Shown piece by piece: positions 38,957-54,111 of a stretch of DNA of 64,000 nucleotides (positions are counted from its first letter, which is position 1; every line of letters begins with the position of its first letter). The translations under genes and the position numbers were made by a program. This stretch comes from Mycobacteroides saopaulense (GTDB lineage: Bacteria > Actinomycetota > Actinomycetes > Mycobacteriales > Mycobacteriaceae). The DNA is taken from contig NZ_CP010271.1 in the NCBI RefSeq assembly GCF_001456355.1, forward strand, positions 2,542,001 through 2,606,000, read 5' to 3'. The notes beneath the pieces were generated by a model, which saw only the letters and a program-made list of their open reading frames with translations, was not told the DNA's origin and ran no database searches.

Positions 38957-40177
38957 ATGGCCGAACCCGATTCCACCTTCGACGCTGCCCTCGCCCCGAT
39001 CCGTGCCGCGGTGGACGACCGCATCCTGGCGGGCGCGGTGACGCTGGTGTGGCAGGGCGGGCAGCTCAGACATCTGGGCGCCACCGGCTACCGCGATGTC
39101 GATGCCGGCCTGTCGATGACCGAGAACACCATTTTCCGCATCGCCTCCATGACAAAGCCCGTAATCAGCGCGGCGACGATGGCGCTGGTCGACGACGGCA
39201 CGATCCGTCTGAGTGACCCGATCACCACCTGGCTGCCGGAGTTCGCCGAGATGCGAGTGCTCAGAGACCCCGACGGCCCCCTGGATGACACATTCCGGGC
39301 ACCACGCGTGATCACGGTCGAGGATCTGCTGACCCACCGCAGCGGGCTGACCTACGACTTCATCTCGACCGGACCGATCGCGAAGGCCTATCACCCGTTG
39401 CACACCGCGGCGTTCAGCGAGCCCGATGAATGGATCGCTGCCATCGCCGCGCTGCCGCTCGTCTACCCGCCGGGAGAGCGCTTCCACTACAGCCATTCCA
39501 CCGATGTGCTCGGCCTCCTCATAGCCCGCGCGTCCGGGCTGCCGCTGAACACGCTGTTGCGTCGGCGCATACTGGACCCCCTCGGGATGAACGACACCGA
39601 CTTCTTCGTACCCGAGCACAAGGCGAGTCGACTGGCGCGCCTGTACGGCCTGGGAGACGACGACCGAATCGTGGTGGCCGACCATGGCTATCTGACCTCG
39701 ATGCCCACCTCGGCGCCCACGCTGTGCCGTGGCGGCGGCGCTCTGGCCAGCACCGCACGCGACTACCTGACCTTTGCGCGGGCCCTGCTGGGCGGTGGCC
39801 AGGCAGACGGAGTCCGCATCCTGTCCCCCGAATCGACGGCCGCGCTGCGCACCAACCGGCTCACTCCGGCCCAGCGCAAGCTGCCGTCTTTCGGCCTGCC
39901 GTACTGGACCGGGCGCGGGTTCGGTCTCGGCCTGTCCGTCGTCATGGACCCCAACGAGGCCGCGCTGTTCGGGCCGGGTGGCACCGGCACCTTCGGCTGG
40001 CCGGGAGCATTCGGCACCTGGTGGCACGCCGATCCGAAGGCCGACGCGATCCTGATGTTCTTGCCGCAGTGGCGCATGCCCGACCTTGATCCGAAGGCCG
40101 CGCTGGGGCGCACCGCGACAATTCGCCTGCAGCTGCTACACGTGCAGTTCGGGCAGGCGGTGTACGCCTCGCTCTAG
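38957..40177 (+). CDS. Serine beta-lactamase-like hydrolase (class C / esterase family)
   Basis: 406-residue protein of the beta-lactamase/penicillin-binding-protein transpeptidase-like superfamily. SxxK motif SMTK at 64-67, YSH (YxN-like) in ERFHYSHSTDVLG, and a C-terminal GTGTFGWPGAFGTWW block in place of the classical KTG. There is no signal peptide, so it is probably a cytoplasmic esterase (EstB/LovD-like type) rather than a drug-hydrolysing lactamase. It diverges from pyrR and marks the edge of the accessory island. LovD-type members transfer acyl groups in polyketide pathways, so a tailoring role is possible but unproven. Confidence 0.85.
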   Translation: MAEPDSTFDAALAPIRAAVDDRILAGAVTLVWQGGQLRHLGATGYRDVDAGLSMTENTIFRIASMTKPVISAATMALVDDGTIRLSDPITTWLPEFAEMRVLRDPDGPLDDTFRAPRVITVEDLLTHRSGLTYDFISTGPIAKAYHPLHTAAFSEPDEWIAAIAALPLVYPPGERFHYSHSTDVLGLLIARASGLPLNTLLRRRILDPLGMNDTDFFVPEHKASRLARLYGLGDDDRIVVADHGYLTSMPTSAPTLCRGGGALASTARDYLTFARALLGGGQADGVRILSPESTAALRTNRLTPAQRKLPSFGLPYWTGRGFGLGLSVVMDPNEAALFGPGGTGTFGWPGAFGTWWHADPKADAILMFLPQWRMPDLDPKAALGRTATIRLQLLHVQFGQAVYASL

Positions 40178-40273: not shown

Positions 40274-41695
40274 ATGACGATCCTGGCTCCGGAGGCCGTC
40301 GATGAATCGCTCGATCCGCGTGATCCGTTGTTGCGGTTGAGCACGTTCTTCGATGACGGCAGTGTTGAGTTGTTGCATGAGCGGGACCGCTCGGGTGTGT
40401 TGGCTGCTGGTGGCACGGTCAACGGGGTCAGGACTATCGCTTTTTGCACCGATGGCACCGTGATGGGCGGGGCCATGGGGATCGAGGGCTGCCGCCACAT
40501 CGTGGCCGCCTACGACACCGCCATCGAGGAGCAGTCCCCGATTGTGGGGATCTGGCATTCCGGTGGTGCCCGTCTGGCCGAAGGGGTTTCGGCCCTGCAC
40601 GCCGTGGGGCTGGTCTTCGAGGCCATGATCCGCGCCTCCGGTTACATCCCGCAGATCTCGGTCGTGGTCGGCTTCGCCGCCGGCGGCGCCGCGTATGGCC
40701 CGGCACTGACCGACGTCATCATCATGGCCCCGGAAAGCCGCGTGTTCGTCACCGGACCCGACGTGGTCCGCAGCGTCACCGGCGAGGACGTCGACATGGC
40801 CACCCTGGGCGGCCCCGAAGCCCACCACAAAAAATCCGGTGTGTGCCACATCGTGGCCGACGATGAACTCGACGCCTACGCCCGCGGCCGCAAGCTGGTC
40901 GGATTCTTCTGCCAACAAGGCGTATTCGACCGCGGCCGCGCCGAAGCCGATCACACCGACCTGCGCGCACTGCTGCCCGAATCAGCCAAACGCGCCTACG
41001 ACGTACACCCCATCGTCAACGCCCTGCTCGACTCCGATGACCCGTTCGAGGAATTCCAGGGCAAATGGGCGCCGTCGATGGTCATCGGCCTGGGCCGCCT
41101 GGCCGGGCGAAGCGTCGGCGTGCTGGCCAACAACCCACTGCGTCTGGGGGGCTGCCTGAACTCCGAAAGCGCCGAAAAAGCCGCACGCTTCGTGCGCCTA
41201 TGCAACGCCTTCGGCATCCCGCTGATCGTGCTCGTGGACGTGCCCGGCTACCTACCCGGTGTCGGCCAAGAATGGGGCGGGGTGGTGCGCCGCGGCGCCA
41301 AACTCCTACACGCCTTCGGTGAAGCCACCGTTCCGCGCGTCACCCTGGTCACCCGCAAGATCTACGGCGGCGCCTACATCGCCATGAACTCCCGCTCACT
41401 GGGCGCCACCAAAGTCTTCGCCTGGCCGGACGCCGAGGTCGCCGTCATGGGCGCCAAAGCCGCCGTAGGCATCCTGCACAAAAAACAACTCGCCGCCGCC
41501 GCCCCCGAAGACCGCGAAGCCCTGCATGAGGAACTCGCCCTCGAACACGAACGCATCGCCGGCGGCGTCGACCGCGCCATCGAAATCGGCGTCGTCGACG
41601 AAGAAATCGAACCCTCACAAACCCGCGCAGTACTCACCCGCGCCCTCGCCGAAGCCCCCTCACGCCGCGGCCGCCACAAAAACATCCCCCTATAA
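40274..41695 (+). CDS. accD6: AccD6-type acetyl/propionyl-CoA carboxylase carboxyltransferase subunit
   Basis: 473-residue carboxyltransferase beta subunit that carboxylates acetyl-CoA (or propionyl-CoA) with a biotinylated alpha chain, producing malonyl-CoA. Oxyanion-forming glycine pairs lie in GGAMGIEGCRHI, HSGGARLAEG and FAAGGAAYGPALTD; the C-terminal half has YLPGVGQEWGGVVRRGAKLL. From memory it is very close to M. tuberculosis AccD6, normally the last gene of the FAS-II operon; here it stands next to a type II PKS instead, with no FAS-II genes. Codon use switches inside the gene (see findings). Tail to tail with marR, 16 bases apart. Confidence 0.93.
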   Translation: MTILAPEAVDESLDPRDPLLRLSTFFDDGSVELLHERDRSGVLAAGGTVNGVRTIAFCTDGTVMGGAMGIEGCRHIVAAYDTAIEEQSPIVGIWHSGGARLAEGVSALHAVGLVFEAMIRASGYIPQISVVVGFAAGGAAYGPALTDVIIMAPESRVFVTGPDVVRSVTGEDVDMATLGGPEAHHKKSGVCHIVADDELDAYARGRKLVGFFCQQGVFDRGRAEADHTDLRALLPESAKRAYDVHPIVNALLDSDDPFEEFQGKWAPSMVIGLGRLAGRSVGVLANNPLRLGGCLNSESAEKAARFVRLCNAFGIPLIVLVDVPGYLPGVGQEWGGVVRRGAKLLHAFGEATVPRVTLVTRKIYGGAYIAMNSRSLGATKVFAWPDAEVAVMGAKAAVGILHKKQLAAAAPEDREALHEELALEHERIAGGVDRAIEIGVVDEEIEPSQTRAVLTRALAEAPSRRGRHKNIPL

Positions 41696-41711
41696 ACATG
41701 GGACGCAGCCA

Positions 41712-42170
41712 TCATTTCTGATCGGGCATACTGAGTTGTGCCAGCAGGCTTTTGAGCCTTTCACGTTCTTCGCGCGTCAGGCCGGCCGTCACTCGGCGTT
41801 CTGCCACCGTGACCTGTCGGCGAGCTAGTTCCAGACGCTGCAATCCTTCTCCGGTGAGAGAGGCCGGCAATGTGCGCCCCTGCTCCGCAGCGGTTGGCCG
41901 GTCCACCAGCCCGTCGTCCTGAAGCTGTTGCAACACATCGCACATCGCCTGCCGACTCACATGCGCTCGACGCGCCAGCTCGGAATTGGACAATCCCGGA
42001 GCGGCGCACAGAATCTGCAGGCAAATGAAGGCCGGCAGCGACAGCCCAAGAGGCTCCAGCCGTACAGTCACGTGTTTTTGCAGCAGCGTCGCGGTACGGG
42101 TGAGCAAGTAGCCCAGGGGCACGCTCTCCTCGGTGTCGGCTGAACCGGCAGTAGAGCACTTGCCTGTCAC
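41712..42170 (-). CDS. MarR-family transcriptional regulator of the polyketide island
   Basis: 152-residue winged helix-turn-helix protein: LSLPAFICLQILCAAPGLSNSELARRAHVSRQAMCDVLQQLQDDGLVDRP (outline, about residues 40-95) carries the recognition helix and the start of the wing. GTG start overlaps the fabD stop (GTGA), so it is co-transcribed and likely autoregulated through the divergent promoter at 44242-44272. MarR proteins commonly sense phenolic compounds, which suits feedback by an aromatic polyketide; this is inference. Confidence 0.9.
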   Translation of the reverse strand: MTGKCSTAGSADTEESVPLGYLLTRTATLLQKHVTVRLEPLGLSLPAFICLQILCAAPGLSNSELARRAHVSRQAMCDVLQQLQDDGLVDRPTAAEQGRTLPASLTGEGLQRLELARRQVTVAERRVTAGLTREERERLKSLLAQLSMPDQK

Positions 42171-43111
42171 GACACCAGGCGCGGAGGCGATGCGGCACCC
42201 TCACGCCGGGTGAGAGCCTCCCGGACCAGCACCAGGGTTTCCGGCGCCGATGCTTGAATTGCCTGCGGTGCTGGGCTTTCCCGCCGTGTCAGCCCACTGA
42301 GCGCACCCTTGCCCAGCTCCACGCGAATATCGGCGCGGTACTGCCGGAGCGAACGGACGCAAAGATCCCACCGCACCTGGCGCGTCAACTGCCGGACCAG
42401 GCGGTGTTTGAGATCCAGCGGCCCGGTGACGAGCGTGCCATCGGCGTTCGACAGCAGCGGGTATCGGGACATCACGACAGCCGTGTTCTCGAGCGCGGCA
42501 CCGAATTCCTGTTCCGCAGAGGCCATGTACGGCGAATGGAAGGCCCCGGCCACCTGCAGCAGCTTTATCTGGGTATCGGGCGGCGGCGAGGCACGCAACT
42601 GATCCAGGTCCTCCAGCCGCCCGGCGGCCACCACCTGTCCCGGGCCGTTCACGTTCGCCACGAACAGTCCTAGTTCCTCGACCGCTCGAGTCACCTCGCA
42701 TAGGCCGCCGCCAACCACCGCCGCCATTCCGGTGGGCTCGTGGTCGCAGGCGCTGCGCATCGCCAGTCCCCTGAGCCTGGCCAACCGAACGGCATCGTGT
42801 GGGCTCATCGCACCGGCCGCCGCGGCGGCGGCCAGTTCTCCCACCGAGTGTCCGGCAAAGATCAACCGGTCCGGCAGCGTCAGCTCACTGCGAAGCCTGT
42901 CGAAGACCAGCAGCGACGTGGCCACGATGAGTGGTTGAGCGATCGCGGTATCAGTGATCTCGTCGTTCTCTGCCACTGTGCCGTAGTAGCGCAGGTCGAG
43001 ATCGGCAGCCTGCGAGAATTCGTCGATCAGGGCAGATCCCGCGTCATCCAGCCACGGTGTGATCATGCCCTTGCGCTGGGCTCCTTGTCCGGGCATCACC
43101 ATTGCGAACAT
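42167..43111 (-). CDS. fabD: Malonyl-CoA:ACP transacylase of the type II PKS cluster
   Basis: 314-residue acyltransferase loading malonyl units on ACP. The second ATG (43111) is chosen because AGGAGG ends six bases upstream; the first ATG at 43117 abuts it. Nucleophile motif FAGHSVGELAAAA (Ser about 89), the Arg of RLRGLAMRSACDHEPTGMAAVVGG and the catalytic His in VAGAFHSPYM are present. Type II clusters usually borrow the fatty-acid FabD, so a dedicated copy suggests a self-sufficient pathway. Middle gene of the operon nitroreductase fusion-fabD-marR. Confidence 0.92.
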   Translation of the reverse strand: MFAMVMPGQGAQRKGMITPWLDDAGSALIDEFSQAADLDLRYYGTVAENDEITDTAIAQPLIVATSLLVFDRLRSELTLPDRLIFAGHSVGELAAAAAAGAMSPHDAVRLARLRGLAMRSACDHEPTGMAAVVGGGLCEVTRAVEELGLFVANVNGPGQVVAAGRLEDLDQLRASPPPDTQIKLLQVAGAFHSPYMASAEQEFGAALENTAVVMSRYPLLSNADGTLVTGPLDLKHRLVRQLTRQVRWDLCVRSLRQYRADIRVELGKGALSGLTRRESPAPQAIQASAPETLVLVREALTRREGAASPPRLVS

Positions 43112-43131
43112 GTTCATCCTCCTGAGGACCG

Positions 43132-44181
43132 TTAGACGGAACTGACAACGTCGCGATAGGTGAGACGCGGCAATCTGGGGTGCCAGGCGTCGGGGCCGGG
43201 CTTGCCGATGTTCACCACCACCAGGGATTGATGCACCCCGTCCGGAAAGAACTCCTTGTCGACCTCACCGGCATCGAATCCGGTCATCGGTCCGGCCGCC
43301 AACCCGGCTGCCCGGATACCGAGGATGAAGTACCCGACCTGGATCAGCGCATTGGTCCGCGCGGACGCGGTGCGTGCGGACACATCCTCGAAATAGTCCT
43401 TGGCTTCCGGAAGGTGCGGAAACTGCGTCGGAAGCTCTTCGTGGAAATTCAAGTCAGCGGCCAGGATCGCCACCAATGGTGCGGACTGAGTCTTGGCCTG
43501 GTTGGCGCCGAGCATGTGCTGCACGAGCCGTGATCGCGCATCACCGGAACGGACCAGGACCACGCGCAACGGCTGCTGGTTCATGGACGTGGGCGCGAAC
43601 TTGATCAACTCGTAGACAGCCTGCATCTGCTCGTCGGATACCGGCTCGTCGGTGAACGTGTTGGCCGTCCGCGCCTCACGGAAGAGTAGATCTTGCGCGG
43701 CCGTGGGCAACGCCAACAACGCCGGCTCGGGCTCCGTTACCCCTTGCAGCAGTGGAGAATCACTGTCATACCTGACATGACGTGATTTGGTCTGCAGATC
43801 GCCGTCCACCCGGACGAGCACATCGTGGACCACACAGCTCGGATTGGCCTCCGCGGGCTTGCCCGGCCGGGTCTTGATGACCAGGCAGTAGACCGTGGAA
43901 CGAATCTCGTCCGCATCGATGTATTCGAGGTCGATCATCGAGAAGTAGTGCCGCTTCTGCACCGGATCGTGTTTGCCCATCTCGCGGAAGTCATACAGGT
44001 CGTTGATGATTCCGGCTCTCGTGACGCTGGCGGGCAGGGCCGTGGTGTGGTCGAAGATCGCATCCTCGGTGAAGGTCGCCGCATAGCCTTCGATGTCCTG
44101 CGCATCGAGCCGCTGCATCTGCCTGGCGTAGAACTGCTGCACCTCCGTGTAGAGGCTCGTGCTGATCTCAATGGTCGTCAT
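43132..44181 (-). CDS. NTF2/SnoaL-like domain fused to a nitroreductase-family flavoenzyme
   Basis: 349-residue two-domain protein. Residues about 1-150 form an NTF2-like cone (SnoaL_4 type): VQQFYARQMQRLDAQDIEGYAATFTEDAIFDH at the start and KSRHVRYDSD near its end; such domains act as polyketide cyclases or hydroxylases. Residues about 160-349 are an FMN nitroreductase of the RutE/malonic-semialdehyde-reductase type: FKFAPTSMNQQP-like LIKFAPTSMNQQPLRVVLV, then AAGLAAGPMTGFD and VVVNIGKPG. The linker is short. The fusion suggests ring closure or hydroxylation paired with flavin redox chemistry on one intermediate. AAGGGGA precedes the ATG; fabD follows after 20 bases. The function is inferred only. 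Confidence 0.85.
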   Translation of the reverse strand: MTTIEISTSLYTEVQQFYARQMQRLDAQDIEGYAATFTEDAIFDHTTALPASVTRAGIINDLYDFREMGKHDPVQKRHYFSMIDLEYIDADEIRSTVYCLVIKTRPGKPAEANPSCVVHDVLVRVDGDLQTKSRHVRYDSDSPLLQGVTEPEPALLALPTAAQDLLFREARTANTFTDEPVSDEQMQAVYELIKFAPTSMNQQPLRVVLVRSGDARSRLVQHMLGANQAKTQSAPLVAILAADLNFHEELPTQFPHLPEAKDYFEDVSARTASARTNALIQVGYFILGIRAAGLAAGPMTGFDAGEVDKEFFPDGVHQSLVVVNIGKPGPDAWHPRLPRLTYRDVVSSV

Positions 44182-44241
44182 GGTCGGTTCCCCTTGATCT
44201 CATCTTCGGTCTCGCCAGTTTCATTAGCGCAGCTCGAATCT

Positions 44242-44272
44242 CGGTCAAGGGCGGCATAGCAGGGCTTGACCG
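44242..44272. promoter_or_regulatory. Symmetric divergent promoter/operator between the ketoreductase and the nitroreductase-fabD-marR operon
   Basis: Perfect 8-bp inverted repeat CGGTCAAG (44242-44249) and CTTGACCG (44265-44272) separated by 15 bases. Each arm supplies a TTGACC -35 box facing outward. On the plus strand a TGCATA-like -10 follows 18 bases later, before the ketoreductase gene. On the minus strand a TAATGA -10 follows 16 bases later, before the nitroreductase fusion gene. One dimeric repressor on the repeat would shut both promoters; the MarR protein of the operon is the obvious candidate. Confidence 0.65.
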
Positions 44273-44304
44273 GAGCTATAGCGCCGCCGTGCATAGTCGC
44301 TTTC

Positions 44305-45093
44305 ATGACTTCGACAACGACTCGTAAAGTTGCTCTCATCACCGGTGCGACCAGTGGCATGGGTTTGACGATCGCGCAGCATCTGGCCAAGCAGGATTTC
44401 GCCGTTTTCCTGTGCGCCCGCAGCGAGGAGTCACTGGCCCAGACCATCAAGCAGCTGCAGACCGACGGCTACGAAGCCGACGGGGTGACCTGCGATGTGA
44501 CCGATCCCGAGCAGATACGCGCCTATGTCGCCGCTGCCGTGGATCGTTATGGACCAGTTGACATACTGGTCAACAACGCCGGCCGCAACGGCGGCGGAAT
44601 TACCAAGGACATCACCGACGAACTCTGGTTCGACGTCATCAACACCAATCTCAACAGCGTCTTCCTGATGACCAAGGCGGCACTGACCACCGGCGGAATG
44701 CTCGACCAGGGCTGGGGCCGAATCGTCAACATCGCCTCCACCGGCGGCAAGCAGGGTGTGCTCCACGGCGCACCGTACTCGGCGTCAAAGCACGGAATGG
44801 TCGGATTCACCAAGGCATTGGGCCTGGAACTGGCCAAGACCGGCGTGACGGTCAACGCCGTATGCCCCGGCTTCGTCGAGACGCCGATGGCAGAGCGTGT
44901 CCGCGAAACCTACGCCACGCTGTGGGGTGTGGATGCCGAGGAGGCTGGCAAGCGTGTCGCCGCGCGCGTACCCATCGGCCGATATGTGGACACCGAAGAG
45001 GTGGCGGCCATGGTCGATTACCTGATCAGCCCCGGCGCCAATGCGGTAACCGCACAAGCCCTCAATGTCTGTGGCGGGCTGGGGAATTACTGA
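44305..45093 (+). CDS. ActIII-like polyketide C9 ketoreductase
   Basis: 262-residue NADPH-dependent SDR, the same length as ActIII. TGATSGMG cofactor loop (14-21), NNAGRNGGG (90-98; ActIII has NAGRPGGG here), catalytic Ser145, Tyr158 and Lys162 in NIASTGG and PYSASK, and a C-terminal WGVDAEEAGKRVAARVPIGRYV block typical of aromatic-PKS ketoreductases. Reduces the C9 ketone of the nascent poly-beta-ketone on ACP, fixing the first ring fold. ATG 44305 is chosen over an upstream TTG at 44266. The only plus-strand gene inside the operon region; its end overlaps the lipocalin-like gene by seven bases. Confidence 0.93.
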   Translation: MTSTTTRKVALITGATSGMGLTIAQHLAKQDFAVFLCARSEESLAQTIKQLQTDGYEADGVTCDVTDPEQIRAYVAAAVDRYGPVDILVNNAGRNGGGITKDITDELWFDVINTNLNSVFLMTKAALTTGGMLDQGWGRIVNIASTGGKQGVLHGAPYSASKHGMVGFTKALGLELAKTGVTVNAVCPGFVETPMAERVRETYATLWGVDAEEAGKRVAARVPIGRYVDTEEVAAMVDYLISPGANAVTAQALNVCGGLGNY

Positions 45094-45485
45094 TTTCGCC
45101 GCCAGGTCAGTATGCGCCGCTGCTGCCTGTCACCCTGCTGGAGCGCACCGATCAACGTCAGCCTATCGACACCGAAGTCGTACTGACGGGTCTGCACGGT
45201 GCCAGCCCAGGCCGGATTGGAGCACACCGTGATGTGGTGCAGCACTATCGATCCGTCCACTTGCCAGTGCCCGGCGTATCCCATGAACGGGACCGCGCCG
45301 GGCACTGGTTCGCCACGCATCATGCTCACCGACAGCGCGCCCTCGGCACCGTAGTAAAGCAACCCCACCGGCGAGGGACCCAGCGGCCCCTCACTGGTGA
45401 CCCCGCTCTCGTCGAGATCGTAATAGGACTCCAATCGCCACTGCCCCACGAAGTCACGGGGCCGTACCGACTCACTGGACGGCAT
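45087..45485 (-). CDS. Lipocalin-like domain protein of the polyketide cluster
   Basis: 132-residue beta-barrel protein resembling the lipocalin-like family (Lipocalin_5 type): FVGQWRLESYYDLDESGVTSEGPLG at the start, GLLYYGAEGALSVSMMR and GYAGHWQVDGSIVLHHITVCSNP in the middle (in outline). ATG 45485 overlaps the hydrolase gene end by 14 bases. It has no signal peptide, so it is likely cytoplasmic and could bind a hydrophobic intermediate or act as a cyclase. Last gene of the main PKS operon. Confidence 0.82.
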   Translation of the reverse strand: MPSSESVRPRDFVGQWRLESYYDLDESGVTSEGPLGPSPVGLLYYGAEGALSVSMMRGEPVPGAVPFMGYAGHWQVDGSIVLHHITVCSNPAWAGTVQTRQYDFGVDRLTLIGALQQGDRQQRRILTWRRNQ

Positions 45486-46245
45486 GTGCGGACCCCCGGC
45501 GGGCGTGGGCTTGCACCAAGTCCGCAAGCGCCTCAGCCAGCTCGTCGGGCATGGTGATCATCGCGTCGTGCCCAGTCTCCAGTTCCCGGACGGGTTCGCC
45601 CACGGGCGGATAGGAACGCGGCATCAACTGCGCCCGCAGCGACGTCCATGCCTGGCCACCACCGGAACAGTGGATGTGCGCACGCGGGATGCCCTGCAGC
45701 CGTTCCGGATTGTTCAACCGCATGACATCGGTGAAGGTACGCAGCGACTGTGGGCTCTGCATCGAACGCACCCAACTCAGGTCGGGCTCGTCGGTCACGC
45801 CGTAGCAACCCTCGACGCCCGGGGGCATGCCGGCCACCGGCACCCGCCAGCCGTCGCCCTCGGACTGCGCCGCCTCGGCGAAGGCCTGCACGTTGACCGG
45901 AAGAATATCGGCCACAGCCTCGCCATCGCGCGCGACGAAGGTATCCAGATACACCAGTAACCCTATGCGGGAGGGAATCTGGTCCGCGACAGCCGTCACG
46001 ACGATGCCGGCGTAACTGTGCCCTACCAGGACCACGTCGGTCAGATCCTCGTCCGTGATCAGGCCCACGATGTCGTTGACGTGGACATCCAAACCCACCT
46101 GCGGCCCCAATTCGGACGCTCGCTCCCCCAGCCCGGTCAGGGAGGGGGCATAGACGTTGTGTCCCGCGGCTTCGAGCACCGGAGTCAGCCTTTCCCAGCA
46201 CCAACCACCGTGAAACGCACCATGTACCAACACATATGTCGTCAT
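45472..46245 (-). CDS. Alpha/beta hydrolase (methylesterase/salicylate-esterase-like)
   Basis: 257-residue esterase-fold protein from ATG 46245, two bases after the monooxygenase stop. N-terminal VLVHGAFHGGWCWERL, nucleophile elbow VGHSYAGIV (Ser about 76), acidic residue region and catalytic His in ELETGHDAMI. Resembles small cofactor-free esterases acting on aromatic esters. In this cluster it may release or cleave an ester or lactone of the polyketide. A much longer open frame continues upstream, but it lies antiparallel in frame with monooxygenase coding and is not part of this protein. Confidence 0.88.
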   Translation of the reverse strand: MTTYVLVHGAFHGGWCWERLTPVLEAAGHNVYAPSLTGLGERASELGPQVGLDVHVNDIVGLITDEDLTDVVLVGHSYAGIVVTAVADQIPSRIGLLVYLDTFVARDGEAVADILPVNVQAFAEAAQSEGDGWRVPVAGMPPGVEGCYGVTDEPDLSWVRSMQSPQSLRTFTDVMRLNNPERLQGIPRAHIHCSGGGQAWTSLRAQLMPRSYPPVGEPVRELETGHDAMITMPDELAEALADLVQAHARRGSAHAVQ

Positions 46246-46247
46246 GT

Positions 46248-47486
46248 CTAAGCCTCCATGGATTCGGAACGCATCCCCACCGCCGGCGGGGGCACTGGTT
46301 CGGGACGCAGGCCCCGGCCTATCACCCGGGCAATCAGTCTGGGCAACAAGGGAAATGCTCGGATCAGTCGTATCAGCAGCGGACGTTCGGCGGGCGGACG
46401 ACCGGCGGTCGGGTAAAGATCCGCCAGCAGATACAGCTGTGCCCACTGCACTATCTGGGCCGGATACTGGCGGCGGCGCTGCACACGGGCCAGCTGCGCC
46501 ACCGAGGGTCGAGCACCGGAAGCCAGCACCGGGCCCAGCATGCGTGCCGCGGCAACGGCGTCTTGCACGGCAAGGTTTATGCCCACGCCGCCGGCCGGCG
46601 ACATCGCATGTGCCGCATCGCCGATCGCCAACAAACCCGGTCGGTACCAGCGCCGCAATCGATCCACGCGTACATCGAGAAGGTGAAAGTCGCTCCAGTC
46701 GTCCAACTCTTCGGCCAGTCTGCCCGCGAACACCGGATAGATGGCGGCGATCGCGGTCTTCAGGGCGTCCAGCCCCTCGCGCCGGATCTGTTCGTAGCCA
46801 CCCTTGGGGATCATGTAGGCGATCTGCCAATAGTGTCCACGATTGAGGCAGACGATGAAGTAGCCCCTGCCGCTGCGGACCGCCGAAACCGGATCGTCGG
46901 CCGCACGGCTCAGCCGGAACCACAACACGTCCATCGGTGCCGTAGACGCGGCCAGGCCGAGTTCTCCGGTGGACCGCACGAGTGACCGCCGCCCGTCTGC
47001 CGCGATCACCAACTTGGCCCGAATCTGCAGCACGCCACCGGGGCCGCTGGCTCTCACCCCCACCACGTCCTCGCCCTCGTGAATCAACTCGGTGGCCTGA
47101 ACCTGCTGCAGGAGTTCAAATCCCGGATAGCGCCGGGCCGCGGAGGCGACGAAGTCCAGCACGTCCCACTGCGGCATGAAGGCCAGGTACCGGTATCTGC
47201 CAGGTAGCGCCCGGAAGTCCGCGAACAGCAATTGGCCGGAGTCGGTGGCGATCGGCAGAGTCTCGGCCTTTGCATGCGGCAGCTCGAGAAACTGGTCGAT
47301 CAGCCCCAGCTCGTCCATCGCCTGCAGTGTCGAAGGGTGAACCGTATCGCCGCGGAAGTCCCGGAGAAAATCGGAATGTTTCTCCACCACCGTCACATCG
47401 AGACCGAATCGGGCCAGCAGCAGACCGGCCATCAGACCGGCCGGGCCACCACCGATGACACACACGTCGACGGCTACGCCAGGCAT
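46248..47486 (-). CDS. FAD-dependent aromatic polyketide monooxygenase (PHBH-like)
   Basis: 412-residue group A flavoprotein monooxygenase. Dinucleotide loop CVIGGGPAGLMAGLLLARFG (about 9-28), the DG motif region AADGRRSLVRSTGEL (about 167-181) and the second FAD motif GLLAIGDAAHAMSPAGGVGINLAVQDA (about 283-309). Uses NAD(P)H and O2 to hydroxylate or epoxidise aromatic rings. Start overlaps the metallo-beta-lactamase gene by 13 bases. Likely introduces a hydroxyl or quinone oxygen on the cyclised polyketide. Confidence 0.92.
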   Translation of the reverse strand: MPGVAVDVCVIGGGPAGLMAGLLLARFGLDVTVVEKHSDFLRDFRGDTVHPSTLQAMDELGLIDQFLELPHAKAETLPIATDSGQLLFADFRALPGRYRYLAFMPQWDVLDFVASAARRYPGFELLQQVQATELIHEGEDVVGVRASGPGGVLQIRAKLVIAADGRRSLVRSTGELGLAASTAPMDVLWFRLSRAADDPVSAVRSGRGYFIVCLNRGHYWQIAYMIPKGGYEQIRREGLDALKTAIAAIYPVFAGRLAEELDDWSDFHLLDVRVDRLRRWYRPGLLAIGDAAHAMSPAGGVGINLAVQDAVAAARMLGPVLASGARPSVAQLARVQRRRQYPAQIVQWAQLYLLADLYPTAGRPPAERPLLIRLIRAFPLLPRLIARVIGRGLRPEPVPPPAVGMRSESMEA

Positions 47487-48412
47487 TCGGGCACCTGACC
47501 GTCGTTGTATCTGACCATGTCGTCGAACGCGGCCATCACGTCAAGCGGTACCCCAAACTCACCTTCGTGTGGTGCGGCACCGAGTTCGGCATAGGCGCGG
47601 TAGAGGTTACCCACGAGCCGTTCGGAGTCGATCAAGCCTGCGAATTCGCCCAATTCGGCACGGTGAGCGACCTCGAGCGGTCCGATGCCCTCGGCAGACC
47701 CCTCGGCAGCCAAGCGCTGGACCCAGGTCAAGTAGGCGATCGTCTGCTCGAATACCTCCGGCCCGGTCAGTGGACCGTGCCCGCACACCACCGTGGTGGC
47801 ACCGAACTCCGCGAGCCGGCGAATGACCTGTAGCGCTCCCGCCACCGAGCCCATCAGGTTGAACGGCGTCGCCCCCGAGAGCACGATGTCACCGGCGAAG
47901 AGAATCCGATCCTGCGGAAGCCAGACCACGGCATCGTTGGTGGTGTGTGCCGGACCAAGGTGTATCAACTCGGCCGCACGGTTCCCGATGTGCAGCTGCA
48001 AGCGCTCGGTGAAGGTCACCGACGGCAGGGTGACTCGGACGTCTCCCCATTCGACGTCGGGCCATAGCCGGGTGAGGGCAAGGCCGGCCTCGTCCATCTC
48101 CACTCGGGCGCGCTCGTGCGCGATGATCGTGGCCTGGGGGCCGAACAGATGGTTGCCGAAATGATGATCACCGTGGAAGTGGGTGTTGACAACGGTGCGC
48201 CGTGCACCGGGGGCCAGCCCGTCGACCGCCGCCACCAACCGCCGATTGCGGCTCTCGGTAGCGAGGGTGTCGATCACTACCGCCCCCTCCGGGCTCACCA
48301 CGATTCCCGAGTTACTGAGGCACCAGCCCCCGGGCAGCTGAAGATAGGCGTAGACCCCGTCCGCGATCTCGGTGATCCGATCGGTGTCCTGTGCCGCCAG
48401 CCCGCGGGTCAA
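47474..48412 (-). CDS. Metallo-beta-lactamase-fold cyclase/thioesterase (ActIV-like candidate)
   Basis: 312-residue zinc hydrolase with metal motif NTHFHGDHHFGNH (about 97-109), further ligands in LGPAHTTND and LFAGDIVLSG, and a final CGHGPL. It belongs to the group of MBL proteins that, in ActIV-type systems, close the second ring and release the chain from ACP. It starts at an unusual TTG (48412) that overlaps the aromatase stop as TTGA; no ATG or GTG fits. Position directly after the aromatase/cyclase supports a cyclisation/release role; a plain glyoxalase-like hydrolase cannot be excluded. Confidence 0.88.
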   Translation of the reverse strand: MTRGLAAQDTDRITEIADGVYAYLQLPGGWCLSNSGIVVSPEGAVVIDTLATESRNRRLVAAVDGLAPGARRTVVNTHFHGDHHFGNHLFGPQATIIAHERARVEMDEAGLALTRLWPDVEWGDVRVTLPSVTFTERLQLHIGNRAAELIHLGPAHTTNDAVVWLPQDRILFAGDIVLSGATPFNLMGSVAGALQVIRRLAEFGATTVVCGHGPLTGPEVFEQTIAYLTWVQRLAAEGSAEGIGPLEVAHRAELGEFAGLIDSERLVGNLYRAYAELGAAPHEGEFGVPLDVMAAFDDMVRYNDGQVPECLA

Positions 48413-49362
48413 GTGAGGTTTTCCGCGAGGGACTCTGCCCAGTACCCGGCATGGGTGAGGGTCGATCTACTATTGGCTCCCAGTGCATTACGCAGATACT
48501 GCTGTGCATCCGCGATGCCCTGCCCTTCGCCCAGCACGGTGGCTATCGCCGCCGGGTTGATCGCGACCATGTGTTGCGACCTGGCGACCGCCCCCTCCGG
48601 CCCGTCGGTGAACTCCCACACCCCGCTGTGCCCGAGCAGCAGTGCGGGCGGCAGTTGCTGTTTATACACAATCTTGCTGGGGCTGAAACACAACCTGACC
48701 GACCTGGTGGTGTGACTGCTGCCGTCGCCTGTGACGGTGTCCATCTCCATGTCTTGCACACCACCCGCGGCTTCGACGAGGTTGACCCGTCCCACGTGAG
48801 GCAAGCGTTGCGGCCATAGGTCGCTGCGTTCTACGAACGTGTAGATATCGGACGCCCGACCCGAGAGATGCACGGTGTCCTCGAACACCTGGATGATTTC
48901 CGCCGGCGCATAACCGCATTCGGCCACCAGTTTCAGCGCGGCCAGTTCTTTTTCACTGTTGGCGTTGACCGCCTCGACGATGGACTGCTGTGCGGCATCA
49001 TCGCCATCGACTGTGAAGTGGTGGTCGAGCACGACCTCCGTGCGGCCACCGGGACGCTGGGCAAAGCTCCAACTGCCTCCCATCGACGCTATCGGGGCGG
49101 CGCTGCGTTCTTGAGCGAACTCGACACGTTTCGCCTCAGGGTCGAAGGTCCTGCGAGAAACCCAATCCCGCACAACACCGTTGACTGTCGCCCAGATGTG
49201 AAAACGCTCCGCCTGTTGATCGTGCTCAAGCAGATCTACGTAGACCGTCGGACCGAAGATGACGGGCCAGCGGGTGACATCGGCCACCAGCGAATAGACC
49301 GACTCCACGGGGGCCGTCATCTCCAACGTGTGCGTCAGAGTATGCGTTGCCGGAGAAGTCAT
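48409..49362 (-). CDS. Didomain polyketide aromatase/cyclase (ActVII/GrisG type)
   Basis: 317-residue protein made of two START-fold (SRPBCC) halves, about 1-150 (ETAPVESVYSLVADVTRWPVIFGP-like start) and about 165-310 (VHLSGRASDIYTFVERSDLWPQRLPHV-like start). Didomain ARO/CYCs act on C9-reduced chains, closing and dehydrating the first ring; monodomain TcmN types act on unreduced chains. This agrees with the ketoreductase in the cluster. The ATG overlaps the ACP stop by four bases. Confidence 0.93.
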   Translation of the reverse strand: MTSPATHTLTHTLEMTAPVESVYSLVADVTRWPVIFGPTVYVDLLEHDQQAERFHIWATVNGVVRDWVSRRTFDPEAKRVEFAQERSAAPIASMGGSWSFAQRPGGRTEVVLDHHFTVDGDDAAQQSIVEAVNANSEKELAALKLVAECGYAPAEIIQVFEDTVHLSGRASDIYTFVERSDLWPQRLPHVGRVNLVEAAGGVQDMEMDTVTGDGSSHTTRSVRLCFSPSKIVYKQQLPPALLLGHSGVWEFTDGPEGAVARSQHMVAINPAAIATVLGEGQGIADAQQYLRNALGANSRSTLTHAGYWAESLAENLT

Positions 49363-49616
49363 GCCGCACCCGCCAATTGGGCGTTGATGACATCCAGCAT
49401 CTGCTGCGGCGTGGTGAGGTCGGCCAGCTCTTCTTCCGCGATATGCACTCCGTACTCGCGTTGCAGACGTGCAGCCGTTTCCATGAGAGCCAGGGAGTCG
49501 TAACCGAGCTCTTCGAATTCCGTTGTCGCACTCTCCGGGCTGATTTCGGTGTCGTCCTCACCACCGGCGCACGCCACCAGGATCTTATGCAGCTGAGCGA
49601 GGGTAATTTCGGCCAT
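49359..49616 (-). CDS. Type II polyketide acyl carrier protein
   Basis: 85-residue ACP from ATG 49616, with AAGGAG seven bases upstream (an ATG two codons earlier abuts the site). The phosphopantetheine attachment serine is Ser41 in LGYDSLALMETAARLQ, a typical aromatic-PKS form. Needs activation by a PPTase encoded elsewhere. It lies 29 bases after KS-beta, in the order KS-alpha, KS-beta, ACP that defines a minimal type II PKS. Confidence 0.95.
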   Translation of the reverse strand: MAEITLAQLHKILVACAGGEDDTEISPESATTEFEELGYDSLALMETAARLQREYGVHIAEEELADLTTPQQMLDVINAQLAGAA

Positions 49617-49645
49617 TTCCATTCTCCTTCGGTAATTTTGCGTGT

Positions 49646-50857
49646 TCAGCGGCGGACGACGACGGCAGAGTTGAAGCCCCACCGGCCGCGCGCCAGTATC
49701 AAGGCGGCCGACAATGACGCCTCGCGTGGTTGACCGTGAACGAGGTCGAGCTGGTATTGCTCGGGAACCTCGGTGGTACCGACCGTCGGTGGGATGACTC
49801 CGTCACGCAGCGACAACAACGCCGTTGCCACATCCAACGGTCCGCCCGCGGCATAGAGCCGACCGGTCATCGACTTCGGAGCCGTCACCGGCACGCCACG
49901 CGGCGAGAAGGTCGCCGCGATCGCCTCCGCTTCCGCTGCGTCGGCCCCGGTCACACCGGCCGCGTCCGCAAAGACCACATCGATATCGGCCGGGGTCAAC
50001 CCGGCATCGGCGATCGCCATCTGTGCGGCCCTGGCCAGCCCGCTGGGCAGCCCGAGTCCTGGCGCGGGATCGAATGTCGAGGCGTATCCGGCGATCTCCC
50101 CGTGAATGTTGGGAGCATTGCGCGCCGTCGCGGAGTCCGCGTCCTCACAGATGAGGATGCAGCCGCCCTCACCCGGTACGTATCCGTTTGCATGCTGATC
50201 GAACGGCAGATATCCCTCGGTCGGGTCCGTTGCCCTGGTGATGTTCCCGGTCGATATGTGCGACGTCCAGCCCCATGGGTCAAGAGCCGAATCCGCGCCA
50301 CCGGAAACCACCAGTGCGGTGCCGCGCCGAACTGTACGACGCGCGTGCCCAAGAGCATCCAGACCGCCCGCCTGCTCGGCCACCAAAGCGCTACTGGGGC
50401 CACGCATTCCGTGCCGAATCGAGATCTGCCCGGTGTTGACCGCGTAGAACCAGGCAAAAGATTCGTACACGCTGACATGCTCCGAACCCTGGGACCACAG
50501 TTTTTGGAATTCTCGGTGCGTGAACTCGAACCCGCCCGAGGCCGTCGAGGTGACCACGCCCATCTCGTAGTCGGTGAATTCCTCTGGATCCACCTTGGCA
50601 TCCCCCAGAGCCCACTCCGCGGCCACGAGCGCGAGCCGCGTCGAGACATCGGTCTGCGGCAGCAGCCGTCCGGGCAACAGTTCCTTGGCATTGAAATCCT
50701 TGAGCTGTCCGGCCAGGGTGCTTGAGTACCCGGAAACATCGAATCTATCCAGGGTTGAGATGCCGGTATGCCCAGATACCGTTGCTTCCCAGTAGTTTTC
50801 GGTACCCAAGCCGTTCGGCGCCAGCACGCCGATACCGGTGATCAAGACCCGCTTCAT
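49646..50857 (-). CDS. Ketosynthase beta / chain length factor (CLF)
   Basis: 403-residue KS-beta from ATG 50857, overlapping the KS-alpha stop by four bases. Thiolase fold throughout, but the active-site cysteine is replaced by Gln162 in [15 protein letters not shown], and the catalytic histidine motifs are lost ([17 protein letters not shown] where KS-alpha has an HGSGT). These changes define chain length factors, which decarboxylate malonyl-ACP to start the chain and set its length. Chain length cannot be read safely from sequence alone; partners suggest an octaketide or decaketide. Confidence 0.96.
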
Positions 50858-52131
50858 GCCGATGCTCCCAGCATCTCGGCCGGACGGCTCAGCACCATCG
50901 CGGTCTGGAAGCCACCGAACCCGCTGCCCACCGTCAGCACATGCTCCATCTTGTGATCGCGTGCCGTCACCGGCACATAGTCCAGATCGCATTCCGGGTC
51001 CGCCTCATGCAGATTCGCGGTCGGTGGGACAACTTGGTTCTTAAGGGCCAGTAACGAGGCCGCGATCTCCACGGACCCGATGGCTCCCAGGGAATGACCC
51101 ACCATCGACTTGATCGAACTGACCGGTGTGCTGTAGGCGTGCTCGCCCAAGCTGCGCTTGAAGGCCGCGGTCTCGTGACGATCGTTCTGCCGCGTACCCG
51201 ATCCGTGGGCATTGACGTAGTCGATCTTTGTCGGGTCGAGCCGCGCCTCGTCCAGGGCGATGGTGATCGCCTCGGCCATTTCCCGCCCGTCGATCTTCAG
51301 CCCGGTCATGTGATAGGCGTTGCAGCGGGTGGCATACCCGGACACCTCGGCGTATATCTGTGCACCGCGGGCCCGTGCGTGCTCGAACTCCTCCAGCACG
51401 AACATGGCCGCACCCTCGGCCAGCACGAATCCGTTGCGCGAACCGTCGAAGGGGCGCGACCCCGTCTCCGGGGTGTCGTTACGCGTGCTGGTGGCCTTGA
51501 TGGCATCGAAGCAAGCCACCACGATGGGTGTGATGGGCGTGTCCGAGGCACCGGTGAGCATCACGTCGGCACTGCCCTCGCGAATCAACGCCGCCGCATG
51601 GCCCACCGAGTCCAGTCCCGAGGTGCACCCGTTGGACACCATGGTCACCGGGCCCTGAGCCCCTACGGTCCAGGCCACCTCTGCGGGCATCACGCTAGGG
51701 ATCATGTAGTCAAACATGTGTGGCGACAACGCCTTTGGATCAGAGAGCCAGTCCCGCCCGGAATCCGACAGCACCAGATACTCCTGCTCCAGGCTGGTCG
51801 CCGCCGCAACCGCGCTACCAAGGCTGACCCCGAGGCGGTATGGGTCGAGCCCATCGACATCCAGCCCGCTGTCGGCCACCGCCTCGCGGGCGCAGACCAC
51901 TGCGAACTGGGTGGCGCGATCCATGCGTCGAATTTCCTTGTGCGACAGACCTTCTTGCTCGGCGTCGAAATCAGCCTCGGCGGCGATCCGAGACCGGTAG
52001 GGGGACGCATCGAAGTAGGAGATGCCACGGGTCGCAGTCCGTCCCGCGGCCAGCAGTTTCCAGAAATCGTCGGCGCCGCGACCACCGGGTGCGCGTACAC
52101 CGATGCCGGTGATGACTACTCGTCGGTTCAT
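50854..52131 (-). CDS. Ketosynthase alpha of type II polyketide synthase
   Basis: 425-residue condensing enzyme. Active-site Cys169 in [15 protein letters not shown], His motifs [14 protein letters not shown] and [16 protein letters not shown]-terminus [22 protein letters not shown] is typical of ActI-ORF1 relatives rather than FabF or KasA. Forms the heterodimer with KS-beta that extends acetyl/malonyl units into a poly-beta-ketone. First gene of the main operon; ribosome-binding site AGGTGGG before ATG 52131. The SARP-like direct repeat at 52189-52206 lies upstream. Confidence 0.97.
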
Positions 52132-52188
52132 CTCCCACCTCTCATTTTGTATCGTTATTACCGTCCGACCTATTGTGGAGAGGCCCTA

Positions 52189-52206
52189 CTCAAAGACCGC
52201 TCAAGC
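52189..52206 (-). promoter_or_regulatory. SARP-type direct repeat upstream of the KS-alpha operon
   Basis: Read on the minus strand, CTTGAGC and TTTGAGT heptamers occur with an exact 11-base period, one helical turn, as in DNA sites of ActII-ORF4/DnrI-type activators (which favour TCGAG-like or TTGAG-like heptamers). A CACAAT -10-like hexamer follows about ten bases later, then the KS-alpha leader. The SARP gene is the next gene upstream, so the activator and target are adjacent. Confidence 0.55.
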
Positions 52207-52250
52207 TGTCATATACGAGCCGAAAAACGCGAAGACCGGTGCCAATCAGC

Positions 52251-52282
52251 AAAAAAAATCCACCAGCGTTGCTGGTGGATTT
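52251..52282 (-). terminator. Intrinsic terminator of the SARP gene
   Basis: Perfect 12-bp stem AAATCCACCAGC (52256-52267) and GCTGGTGGATTT (52271-52282) with a 3-base loop. On the minus strand the stem runs into eight consecutive T residues (52258 to 52251). It starts 15 bases after the SARP stop codon and ends 120 bases before KS-alpha, separating the regulator from the PKS operon. Confidence 0.9.
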
Positions 52283-52297
52283 GATGAGCTTGTCTTG

Positions 52298-53179
52298 TCA
52301 GGAAACCTGAGACGTAAGTCCAGTAACAGTGTGCGGAATCAGACCGGTGAGATACCGGCCGTGTTCTGTTCTCATTCGATTGGCGACGGTATCGTCCGAT
52401 GAGGAAAGGATGTCGCCGTGCAATCTTTGCAGCTTTATGCAAGGCTCTAATCCGAGACCGGCGGCCAGTGTTTTCCTGGCCAACTGAAATACACCCAAGG
52501 CTTTGTCTCGCCAGCCCGCAAGACATAGCGCATACATATAATATGCGTATAACCGCTCGTGGTAAGGGAACCGAGAAACCCAGAGTGCCAGGTCGATGGC
52601 GGCTTCCCGATATCGCTCAAGGCGTAGTTGAGCCTCGATACGTAATTCGAGATTTGCCAGAAATATACACTCGAATTGATCTTTCTCCGATGCGAGCAGT
52701 CGCCCGACCTCGATGTCGACAAATGCCGGACCGGTCCATATCTTCTCGGCATTGCCGAACAGCAGAACCGCCTGATGATCGTTCCCGGACTCCTTGGCGC
52801 ATCGCGCCGACTCGATGCAACTTTGATACCTACGCAGGTCAAGGCTTATTTCTTGAGTGCTGAACAAGTAGCCCATGTTCTTGGTCTGCAGCATCGACGA
52901 GGCGACCTGAGTCACACTCATGTCGAATTCCTTGGCTATTGTCTTGCGAATACTCAGGATGTAGGTCTGCACAACGGTAGTGGCACTCTTGGGTGGTTCT
53001 TCATCCCATAGTTCGTCGATCAGCACCGCCGCCGGGACAAAACGTCCGGCCCGAGCCAGGAGCATGGCAAGGACCTGTCGTTGTTTTTTCGCCGACGGTG
53101 TGGCGTCCCGCTCCCCCGCGGGCAGAGATAACGTCAATGACAATGGACCGAGAATATTAGCCTCTGCGCGAATTACCAT
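52298..53179 (-). CDS. SARP-family pathway activator
   Basis: 293-residue Streptomyces antibiotic regulatory protein homologue. The N-terminal OmpR-like winged helix (about 8-100: ANILGPLSLTLS, KQRQVLAMLLARAGRFVPAAVLIDELWDEEPPKSA in outline) is followed by a bacterial transcriptional activation domain (about 105-250: LDLRRYQSCIESAR, FPYHERLYAYYMYALCLAGWRDKALGVFQ in outline). The GGAGGT site is eight bases from ATG. The gene is visibly more AT-rich than its neighbours, consistent with transfer from another actinobacterium. Likely the pathway-specific activator of the PKS operon. Confidence 0.92.
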   Translation of the reverse strand: MVIRAEANILGPLSLTLSLPAGERDATPSAKKQRQVLAMLLARAGRFVPAAVLIDELWDEEPPKSATTVVQTYILSIRKTIAKEFDMSVTQVASSMLQTKNMGYLFSTQEISLDLRRYQSCIESARCAKESGNDHQAVLLFGNAEKIWTGPAFVDIEVGRLLASEKDQFECIFLANLELRIEAQLRLERYREAAIDLALWVSRFPYHERLYAYYMYALCLAGWRDKALGVFQLARKTLAAGLGLEPCIKLQRLHGDILSSSDDTVANRMRTEHGRYLTGLIPHTVTGLTSQVS

Positions 53180-53309
53180 ACTTCACTACCTCCGCGTGGT
53201 ACCATTAAGGGGCACGCCAATGTGCTACTGATCTACGGTTATCGATATCCTCTCAGGATCTTCCAAGCCTAACTGGTTACATCCATTGCCGCTTGGCGTA
53301 TGCGTTACC

Positions 53310-53346
53310 GTACGATTAACATCGCATGATCTCGGCGATCGTACGT
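53310..53346. promoter_or_regulatory. Inverted repeat upstream of the SARP gene
   Basis: CGTACGAT (53310-53317) and ATCGTACG (53339-53346), perfect 8-bp arms separated by 21 bases, in the AT-rich 200-base gap between the SDR gene end and the SARP gene start. It could be an operator controlling the activator, about 130-170 bases upstream of its ATG. No binding protein can be assigned. Confidence 0.45.
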
Positions 53347-53379
53347 GACAATCTTCACCGCATATGACATATTCGAAGA

Positions 53380-54111
53380 TTACTTGTTGCCAAGCTCCGT
53401 TCCGCCATCCGCCGTAATGATCTGTCCGGTCATGTAACTGACTCTTTCACTGGCGAGAAATATCAGCATCTCTGCTATTTCTTCTGGGGTGCCTATTCGG
53501 CCGAGCAATGACGATTCGGCTTCCGCGCGACTCGCCGGGCTCAACCCGGCCACCAGATCGGTCTCGATCAGGCCTGGGGCCAGACCATTGACCAGAATCT
53601 GCGGAGCAAGTTCTTTGGCGAGTGCCACGGTGAAACTGTTGAGCGCCGCCTTCGACGCCGAGTAGGCCATTCCCCGTGCGGTGGCCATCGACAGATTCCC
53701 GCGCATGGACGAGACGTTGACGATCCGTGCACTGCCGTCACGCGGCATATGTGGCGCCACCGCTTGGCAGAAGTTGAATACACCAATCAGATTCGCGTTC
53801 AGATGCCGATCCCAGTCCTGTCTGGTCAGTTCGGCGAAGGCTCGGGGCGCTGCCACCCCGGCGCAGTTGACCAAAGAGTCAATGCGGCCGTGGACACGTA
53901 CAACCTCCCGGACCGCGTCGGCGACCTCGACAGAATCACCGACATCGGCCACCACGCACTGGCCGCCGATATCGGCTCCGTGTTGTCGCAGGGCATCGCT
54001 GTCGGTGCGACCATGCAAAACAACGTCCGCCCCGGCATCCTTCGCCAACCGTGCGGTCGCCAACCCGATCCCCCGCGAGGAGCCGGTGATGAGTACTACC
54101 CGACCCCGCAT
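53380..54111 (-). CDS. SDR-family oxidoreductase (FabG-like), edge of polyketide cluster
   Basis: 243-residue NAD(P)H-dependent short-chain dehydrogenase from ATG 54111. Cofactor loop TGSSRGIG (about 9-16), NCAGVA, catalytic Ser in VNVSSMRG and Tyr/Lys in AYSASKAALN, C-terminal GQIITADGGTELGNK. More FabG-like than ActIII-like, so it may be a second ketoreductase or a later tailoring enzyme. Same strand as the SARP and PKS operon but separated from SARP by 200 bases. A long frame upstream is open but not homologous. Confidence 0.87.
   Translation of the reverse strand: MRGRVVLITGSSRGIGLATARLAKDAGADVVLHGRTDSDALRQHGADIGGQCVVADVGDSVEVADAVREVVRVHGRIDSLVNCAGVAAPRAFAELTRQDWDRHLNANLIGVFNFCQAVAPHMPRDGSARIVNVSSMRGNLSMATARGMAYSASKAALNSFTVALAKELAPQILVNGLAPGLIETDLVAGLSPASRAEAESSLLGRIGTPEEIAEMLIFLASERVSYMTGQIITADGGTELGNK

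Follow-up and report, generated by a model that had tools for sequence, protein, structure and literature searches.

The window analysed here, 64,000 nucleotides of the mycobacterial chromosome of Mycobacteroides saopaulense (positions 2,542,001 to 2,606,000 of a single contig of 4,649,175 bases), carries a complete gene set for a type II aromatic polyketide synthase (PKS). The genes form an intact island of 15 genes and about 14 kb, at positions 40274 to 54111 of the window, in which every frame is open from start to stop. A preliminary description, made from the sequence alone, had placed a complete type II PKS cluster here; all of the genes that it named were found, and its coordinates fit the limits of the island. 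The cluster belongs to a known kind and it is the mycobacterial host that is unexpected, the secondary metabolism of mycobacteria being known mostly through the lipids made by type I and III PKSs and through siderophores. Conservation of an entire aromatic type II cluster among several related mycobacterial genomes would add a class of product that is new to these bacteria.

The ketosynthase pair and its chain-length residues

The core of the island consists of a ketosynthase alpha (KSa; 50854 to 52131, minus strand), a ketosynthase beta or chain-length factor (CLF; 49646 to 50857, minus strand) and an acyl carrier protein (ACP; 49359 to 49622, minus strand), together with an ActIII-type ketoreductase (KR; 44305 to 45093, plus strand) and a didomain aromatase/cyclase (ARO; 48409 to 49362, minus strand). 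Proteins of the island were assigned to families through Pfam and NCBIfam profile searches, sequence matches in the PDB, and their translations; KSa and CLF both fall in the ketoacyl-synthase family. The best PDB matches of KSa (1tqy_A, E 4.5e-211), CLF (1tqy_B, E 1.3e-182) and KR (ActIII, 2rh4, E 4.3e-114) are the actinorhodin enzymes, and identity to the actinorhodin proteins is 75% for KSa and 69% for CLF. KSa keeps the catalytic residues C169, H309, K341 and H346, and Gln replaces the active-site Cys of CLF at residue 162, which is ActI position 161; Cys169 and Gln162 had both been read correctly in the preliminary description, as had Ser41 of the ACP (PP-binding, E 8.6e-12), the serine of a DSL motif when residues are counted from MAEI. 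The ARO (Polyketide_cyc) matches BexL over residues 10 to 310, nearly its whole length (E 5.6e-78), and also StfQ (E 5.1e-58). The island thus has the features by which a type II PKS is recognised, a separate KSa with its catalytic Cys, a paired CLF without that Cys and an ACP, with ARO and KR in the same cluster.

A phylogeny joining the two ketosynthases to fatty-acid enzymes was what the preliminary description had named as contrary to its own reading. In a tree of 59 rows, KSa and CLF fall among their actinobacterial type II counterparts, in a KSa clade and a CLF clade that both have support of 100/100, and two further ketosynthases of the same genome (L010 and L049, the latter beside the host accD6 gene) fall outside both. 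We take L049 to occupy the KasA/KasB position. NCBIfam holds no dedicated model for these KSa and CLF proteins; KSa lies below its cut-offs for fabF (440 against 494 bits) and for KasA/KasB (250 against 560), and CLF scores 131 bits against the latter cut-off of 560.

Seven residues have been proposed as chain-length determinants, F140 and L143 of KSa and F109, T112, F116, W194 and G195 of CLF (PMC4383371), and at six of these positions the window proteins have the ActI residue: F140 of KSa and all five in CLF. The seventh, residue 143 of KSa, is Met and not Leu, as it is in the four other KSa rows that were checked (L052, L053, L084 and L086). With six of seven residues as in actinorhodin, the most likely prediction is an octaketide (C16) chain leading to a quinone-type product, bearing in mind that one review describes understanding of the control of chain-length fidelity as limited (PMC12664062).

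Distribution and insertion site

Type II PKSs had been called a hallmark of Streptomyces-like producers in the preliminary description. We searched for the CLF in 396 genomes of the genus and, at E<=1e-120, in 397 genomes of the order and 301 of the family, and relatives were found in 59 of the order sample and 12 of the family sample (the genome of the window itself, nine genomes from genus g2 and a single one each from g3 and g5). Therefore, the cluster type is not Streptomyces-specific, and that half of the statement has to be given up; its presence in mycobacteria is indeed the unusual part. Within the genus, a CLF match at 95 to 100% identity was seen in just three genomes of 396, G000 (the window genome), G189 and G309, of which the last two are not among the positives of the order and family samples. 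Some ketosynthase match was present in all 396 genomes, and further type II clusters within the genus were rejected, since beyond the three positives the best match, in G083, had E 5.9e-43, and the window KSa matches its own CLF more strongly than that (E 4.1e-47). Loci L014 to L017 (in G083, G261, G055 and G385) hold ketosynthases 31 to 33% identical to the CLF beside a short-chain dehydrogenase/reductase (SDR) and distant carboxyltransferase-like frames; L014 to L021 were looked at by tblastn, with a few also placed in the tree, and are not called type II PKSs.

A scan of genome contigs, which relies on short exact patterns and may omit records very near the window genome, returned eight CLF loci: three at 95% identity, in Mycobacteroides sp. 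LB1 (G309), Mycobacterium sp. D16Q13 (G189) and D16Q14, one at 52%, in Amycolatopsis keratiniphila, and the remaining four at 31 to 32%. In a protein search (best 120 of 5,690 matches), a 95% match to the CLF (P0001) is followed by proteins at 72 to 73% from Umezawaea, other Pseudonocardiaceae and further sources, with Nocardia reaching up to 71%. Four mycobacterial loci (the window, L041, L042 and L043) keep the cluster, with KSa, CLF, ACP and KR 93 to 98% identical, the SARP activator 92 to 94%, and the other proteins 72 to 89%. The island also encodes a SnoaL-like domain fused to a flavin reductase; a search with this protein found an 88% identical cluster of 33 member sequences, P0242, named Mycobacteroides salmoniphilum, and both Pfam domains occur only in P0241 and P0242 among the best 120 of 6,841 proteins. 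When 100 relatives were searched with the fusion protein, 12 matched (E<=1e-60), the window genome alone at full length and the other 11 in the reductase half.

No paper on this mycobacterial cluster was found, by title or start of abstract, in a limited search of the open-access literature. A figure legend in a study of mycobacterial CYP139A clusters explains a "T2pks" label (PMC6600245), which implies that the type II label has already been given to some mycobacterial cluster, and the string "mycobacter" is absent from the main text of a catalogue of type II PKS clusters (PMC10132072).

The limits of the island, between the end of a beta-lactamase-like gene (38957 to 40177) and the start of a gene for an F420-dependent reductase (54293 to 54727), were set by comparison with four relatives that lack the cluster, G087, G091, G219 and G242, in which the order is pyrR, the beta-lactamase-like gene, the F420 reductase gene and nusB. 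The frames at the cluster-less site were listed for two of these: between the beta-lactamase-like and F420 reductase genes, G219 has a single methyltransferase gene and G087 a methyltransferase gene and a DUF4259 gene. In LB1 (L052), the cluster directly adjoins the F420 reductase gene, and in D16Q13 (L053) and D16Q14 (L042) about 1.7 kb of extra DNA separates the second SDR gene of the island from that of the F420 reductase. Pfam gave no match for one frame of the D16Q13 stretch. The contigs of all three end at or before the accD6 paralogue of the cluster, the other flank lying outside these data. The simplest reading is a single acquisition by a common ancestor. As a separate observation, about 6 kb of additional sequence separates the F420 reductase gene from nusB in LB1, and with the 1.7-kb additions in D16Q13 and D16Q14 the insertion site looks variable.

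Gene layout, Nocardia-group relatives and the accD6 paralogue

On the minus strand, KSa, CLF, ACP and ARO are followed by genes for a metallo-beta-lactamase (MBL) fold protein (47474 to 48412; Lactamase_B, E 5.7e-21), a FAD-dependent monooxygenase (46248 to 47486; FAD_binding_3, E 2.6e-50; NF004834 at 529.6 bits against a cut-off of 500; PDB 8uiu, 1.8e-44), an alpha/beta hydrolase of the hydroxynitrile-lyase/pyrethroid-hydrolase type (45472 to 46245; Abhydrolase_6, E 5.2e-24; PDB 5hk8, 4.2e-19) and a lipocalin-like protein (45087 to 45527; Lipocalin_5, E 7.2e-22), whose ATG start is probably at 45485. These eight genes overlap or nearly abut in an operon-like manner, and upstream of them, also on the minus strand, lie the genes for SARP (52298 to 53179; Trans_reg_C and BTAD, E 5.2e-28) and a second, FabG-like SDR (53380 to 54111; adh_short_C2, E 1.2e-56). 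A second minus-strand run comprises the SnoaL-reductase fusion (43132 to 44181; SnoaL_4 and Nitroreductase), a malonyl-CoA:ACP transacylase-like protein (MAT; 42167 to 43117; Acyl_transf_1, E 3.3e-25; GHSVGE motif) and a MarR-family regulator (41712 to 42170; MarR_2, E 2.7e-10), whereas KR and the accD6 paralogue, hereafter accD6' (40274 to 41695; Carboxyl_trans, E 6.2e-127), are on the plus strand. The Pfam families found agree with the preliminary assignments of all of these proteins that it named. For MAT, the best NCBIfam models are malonate_mdcH (187.9 bits) and fabD (175.3 bits), both under cut-off; the fusion protein passes PRK05365 (254.5 against 152 bits), which NCBIfam names RutE. 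The MBL protein, a probable ActIV-like cyclase/thioesterase, directly follows ARO, as in L072, and its THFHGDH sequence carries the THxHxDH motif reported for ActIV-like chain-releasing MBL enzymes (PMC10265476). Defence-system families were not seen in the three proteins tried.

From the 68 other positive genomes of the order and family searches, 20 non-mycobacterial loci were fetched, mostly high-scoring ones. A relative of the MBL protein, at 51 to 64% identity, is present in 11 of the 20. In the KSa tree, the window, three mycobacterial rows and three Nocardia-group rows, L084 (G959), L085 (G935) and L086 (G879), all of genus g2, form a clade supported at 100/98. The three loci share with the window the order SnoaL, RutE-type reductase, KR, lipocalin, hydrolase, FAD monooxygenase, MBL, ARO, ACP, CLF, KSa and SARP, at identities of 81 to 83% for KSa, 68 to 70% for CLF, 74 to 75% for KR, 73 to 74% for the reductase and 49 to 51% for SARP. 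Within the 20 kb taken at each of the 20 loci, these three alone encode counterparts of the FAD enzyme, the hydrolase and the reductase that all exceed 59% identity.

The differences were followed frame by frame in L084. There, SnoaL and the reductase are separate frames, whereas they form one open frame in the window, LB1, D16Q13 and D16Q14; an apparent split in LB1 (P0243, 198 amino acids) was put down to the annotated start, the LB1 DNA being one open frame. Between KSa and SARP, L084 has a fused accDA gene (ACCA and Carboxyl_trans) and a biotin carboxylase gene, accC, and the window has neither at that position; in each of the three Nocardia-group loci, the interval from KSa to SARP holds a distant carboxyltransferase match, at 24 to 26%. 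L084 also has luciferase-domain and HxlR genes. In place of this whole set, accDA and accC included, the window has accD6', MAT, MarR and the second SDR, the first three at the opposite end of the cluster from the accDA/accC pair of L084. The second SDR is 86% identical in L052, L053 and L042.

The preliminary description was right to call the carboxylase AccD6-type; more precisely, its gene is paralogous to the accD6 of the host itself, the gene of fatty acid synthase II (FAS-II; G000:C1:1646769-1648189), to whose product it is identical at 470 of 473 amino acids. Relative to L084, this copy stands in for the accDA/accC pair, and it was apparently recruited to feed the PKS. Complete identity of the two copies, suggested by a BLAST piece of 330 amino acids, is ruled out by 94 base differences over the full 1422 bases (93% DNA identity), spread patchily at 0 to 20 per 100 bases with most past base 1200. 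Since 86 codons differ synonymously and only 3 non-synonymously, AccD6' has evolved under constraint. Recent copying is disfavoured, because the housekeeping accD6 is about as far from that of G087 (96 bases) as from accD6'.

In LB1, both accD6 loci end contigs within the gene and share an identical 127-base 3' end, which matches the cluster copy of the window at 120 of 127 bases, the housekeeping copy of the window at 104 and the four relatives at 103 to 109; the contig of the housekeeping locus was identified from its flanking sequence, which has 85% identity to the accD6 locus of the window genome. Read plainly, this suggests gene conversion from the cluster copy to the housekeeping copy in LB1, the alternative being misassembly of a collapsed repeat. 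The contigs of D16Q13 and D16Q14 stop just short of accD6', which fits near-identical copies without proving them. Homogenisation is not complete everywhere, as the divergence of the two copies in the window makes plain. It is tempting, if somewhat against the odds, to suppose that an island which entered a Mycobacteroides ancestor swapped its donor malonyl-CoA module for a copy of host accD6, that the two copies still exchange sequence, and that the PKS and the FAS-II route to mycolates thus depend on a single carboxylase that co-evolves with both. The extra copy would then either feed the PKS or buffer a burden that the product places on AccD6. The recruited copy would tie a specialised pathway in a concrete way to the supply of mycolate precursors.

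Proposed pathway, product and regulation

We consider it likely that the island encodes a functional type II aromatic PKS that follows an octaketide route to an oxidised quinone-type product. AccD6', with the other acetyl-CoA carboxylase subunits of the host, would supply malonyl-CoA, and MAT would load malonyl onto the ACP. KSa and CLF would assemble the octaketide, KR would reduce C9, and the didomain ARO would close and aromatise the first ring, after which the MBL enzyme may close the second ring and release the chain. The SnoaL-reductase fusion, FAD monooxygenase, hydrolase and lipocalin-like protein could then convert the intermediate to an oxidised quinone-type polyketide. SARP would activate the operon from KSa to the lipocalin gene, with MarR probably governing the SnoaL-reductase and MAT side. 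The sequences show the gene content, the open frames, the catalytic and chain-length residues, the kinship and order of the genes and the rarity of the cluster in the genus sample; we infer the reactions, their regulation and expression, and the product, which is probably of the C16 quinone type.

Several observations weigh against this reading or parts of it. KSa scores above the threshold of NF005589, a general subfamily of beta-ketoacyl-ACP synthase II (429.5 against 387 bits), and the tree tool warned of possible misjoining of the other ketosynthases of the genome, whose branches are long. The PDB matches of the MBL protein are weak (best 4.4e-18, ActIV itself lying outside the comparison). 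Exporter, P450, glycosyltransferase and methyltransferase families are lacking among the island proteins in the Pfam scans. The second SDR, MAT and MarR have no close match in L084 to L086 (33% at best for the SDR), so that a pathway role for these three, and for AccD6' with its distant 24 to 26% match, rests on position. As for descent, the fork in the CLF tree is open, the nearest non-mycobacterial row by path is L070 and not Nocardia, and among the matches listed the best non-mycobacterial CLFs are those of Pseudonocardiaceae type and others, at 72 to 73% against at most 71% for Nocardia; KSa groups with the Nocardia-group loci, but CLF gives no support to that link.

Of the explanations that would do away with the pathway altogether, a ketosynthase pair of KasA/KasB type, serving fatty-acid or mycolic-acid synthesis, would account for the adjoining accD6 paralogue and MAT and for the FabF-type model that KSa passes. 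However, the low KasA/KasB scores of both proteins, the Gln of CLF, the position of the pair in the tree, the ARO and the ActIII-type KR make it so improbable that we give it almost no weight. A silent relic that makes nothing would agree with an AT-rich SARP gene containing TTA codons and with the lack of an exporter family, yet none of the 15 frames is interrupted, four mycobacterial loci retain the cluster, AccD6' is under strong purifying selection, and the TTA positions are unconserved between loci; we regard this outcome as improbable.

The nature of the product can be narrowed through known systems. The early actinorhodin (act) pathway of Streptomyces coelicolor resembles the island in KSa, CLF, ActIII-type KR, didomain ARO and MBL-fold protein, and its tailoring genes differ from those of the island. 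In particular, 3-hydroxyacyl-CoA-dehydrogenase families are absent from the island in the Pfam scans, and so is the ActVI-1-like reductase that we take to be of this type and to mark benzoisochromanequinone pathways. A simple act-type shunt anthraquinone, similar to 3,8-dihydroxy-1-methylanthraquinone-2-carboxylic acid (DMAC) or aloesaponarin II, would suit an island that has KR, ARO and an MBL cyclase without benzoisochromanequinone tailoring genes, and complementation of an E. coli octaketide system with ActVII is reported to have given aloesaponarin II and DMAC (PMC6638757). Nevertheless, the four mycobacterial loci all retain the SnoaL-reductase fusion, the FAD enzyme, the hydrolase and the lipocalin-like protein, and the three Nocardia-group loci retain the same set with SnoaL and reductase counted singly, which suggests a longer pathway, and we think such a shunt product on the unlikely side. 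A skeleton that has undergone oxidative cleavage or rearrangement, as in isofuranonaphthoquinones, erdacin/utahmycin or tropolones, with the FAD enzyme and the RutE-type reductase carrying out the rearrangement, seems to us a real prospect, although not quite an even one. The FAD enzyme shares 63% identity with P0148, a protein of "uncultured soil bacterium V167", presumably the environmental DNA clone of the erdacin pathway; the comparison with that clone covers this one protein. Utahmycin A, for its part, is predicted to derive from the erdacin pathway (PMC11212599). The reductase half of the fusion matches IstO (E 1.3e-68), described as an oxidoreductase of tropolone aglycones (PMC9099902), but IstO is the sole strong PDB match of the domain and hence no particular pointer to tropolones, NCBIfam calling the domain RutE; a tropolone assignment from IstO was judged too weak. 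Finally, a SARP-controlled octaketide cluster, fnq/ifn of Nocardia sp. CS682, makes isofuranonaphthoquinones and by its gene descriptions has an octaketide PKS, SARP, SnoaL-like protein, FAD enzyme and hydrolase in common with the island (PMC11354674). In contrast, the P450, ferredoxin and flavin-reductase trio described for it (FnqBCD) is not in the island, where ferredoxin families, like those of P450s, are lacking in the Pfam scans.

With respect to regulation, the Nocardia octaketide cluster is reported to be switched on by its own SARP (PMC11354674). The SARP gene of the window is AT-richer than its neighbours (54% GC, 0.59 at third codon positions) and has four TTA codons; bldA-like control through TTA was considered and dropped, since the codons number four in the window, three in LB1, two in D16Q13 and none in D16Q14, at unconserved positions. 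Four intergenic stretches were searched for direct repeats of the SARP type, spaced 11 or 22 bases apart, and held none at 6 of 7 matches. Promoter-like sites numbered six against 2.8 (standard deviation 1.4) in shuffled sequence and are not used as evidence. Between SARP and KSa lies a hairpin resembling an intrinsic terminator (52256 to 52282, minus strand), with 12 pairs followed by a T run; it has the longest stem of 12 such sites between 40100 and 54400, a count near the chance expectation of 8.5 (standard deviation 3.1) from shuffles.

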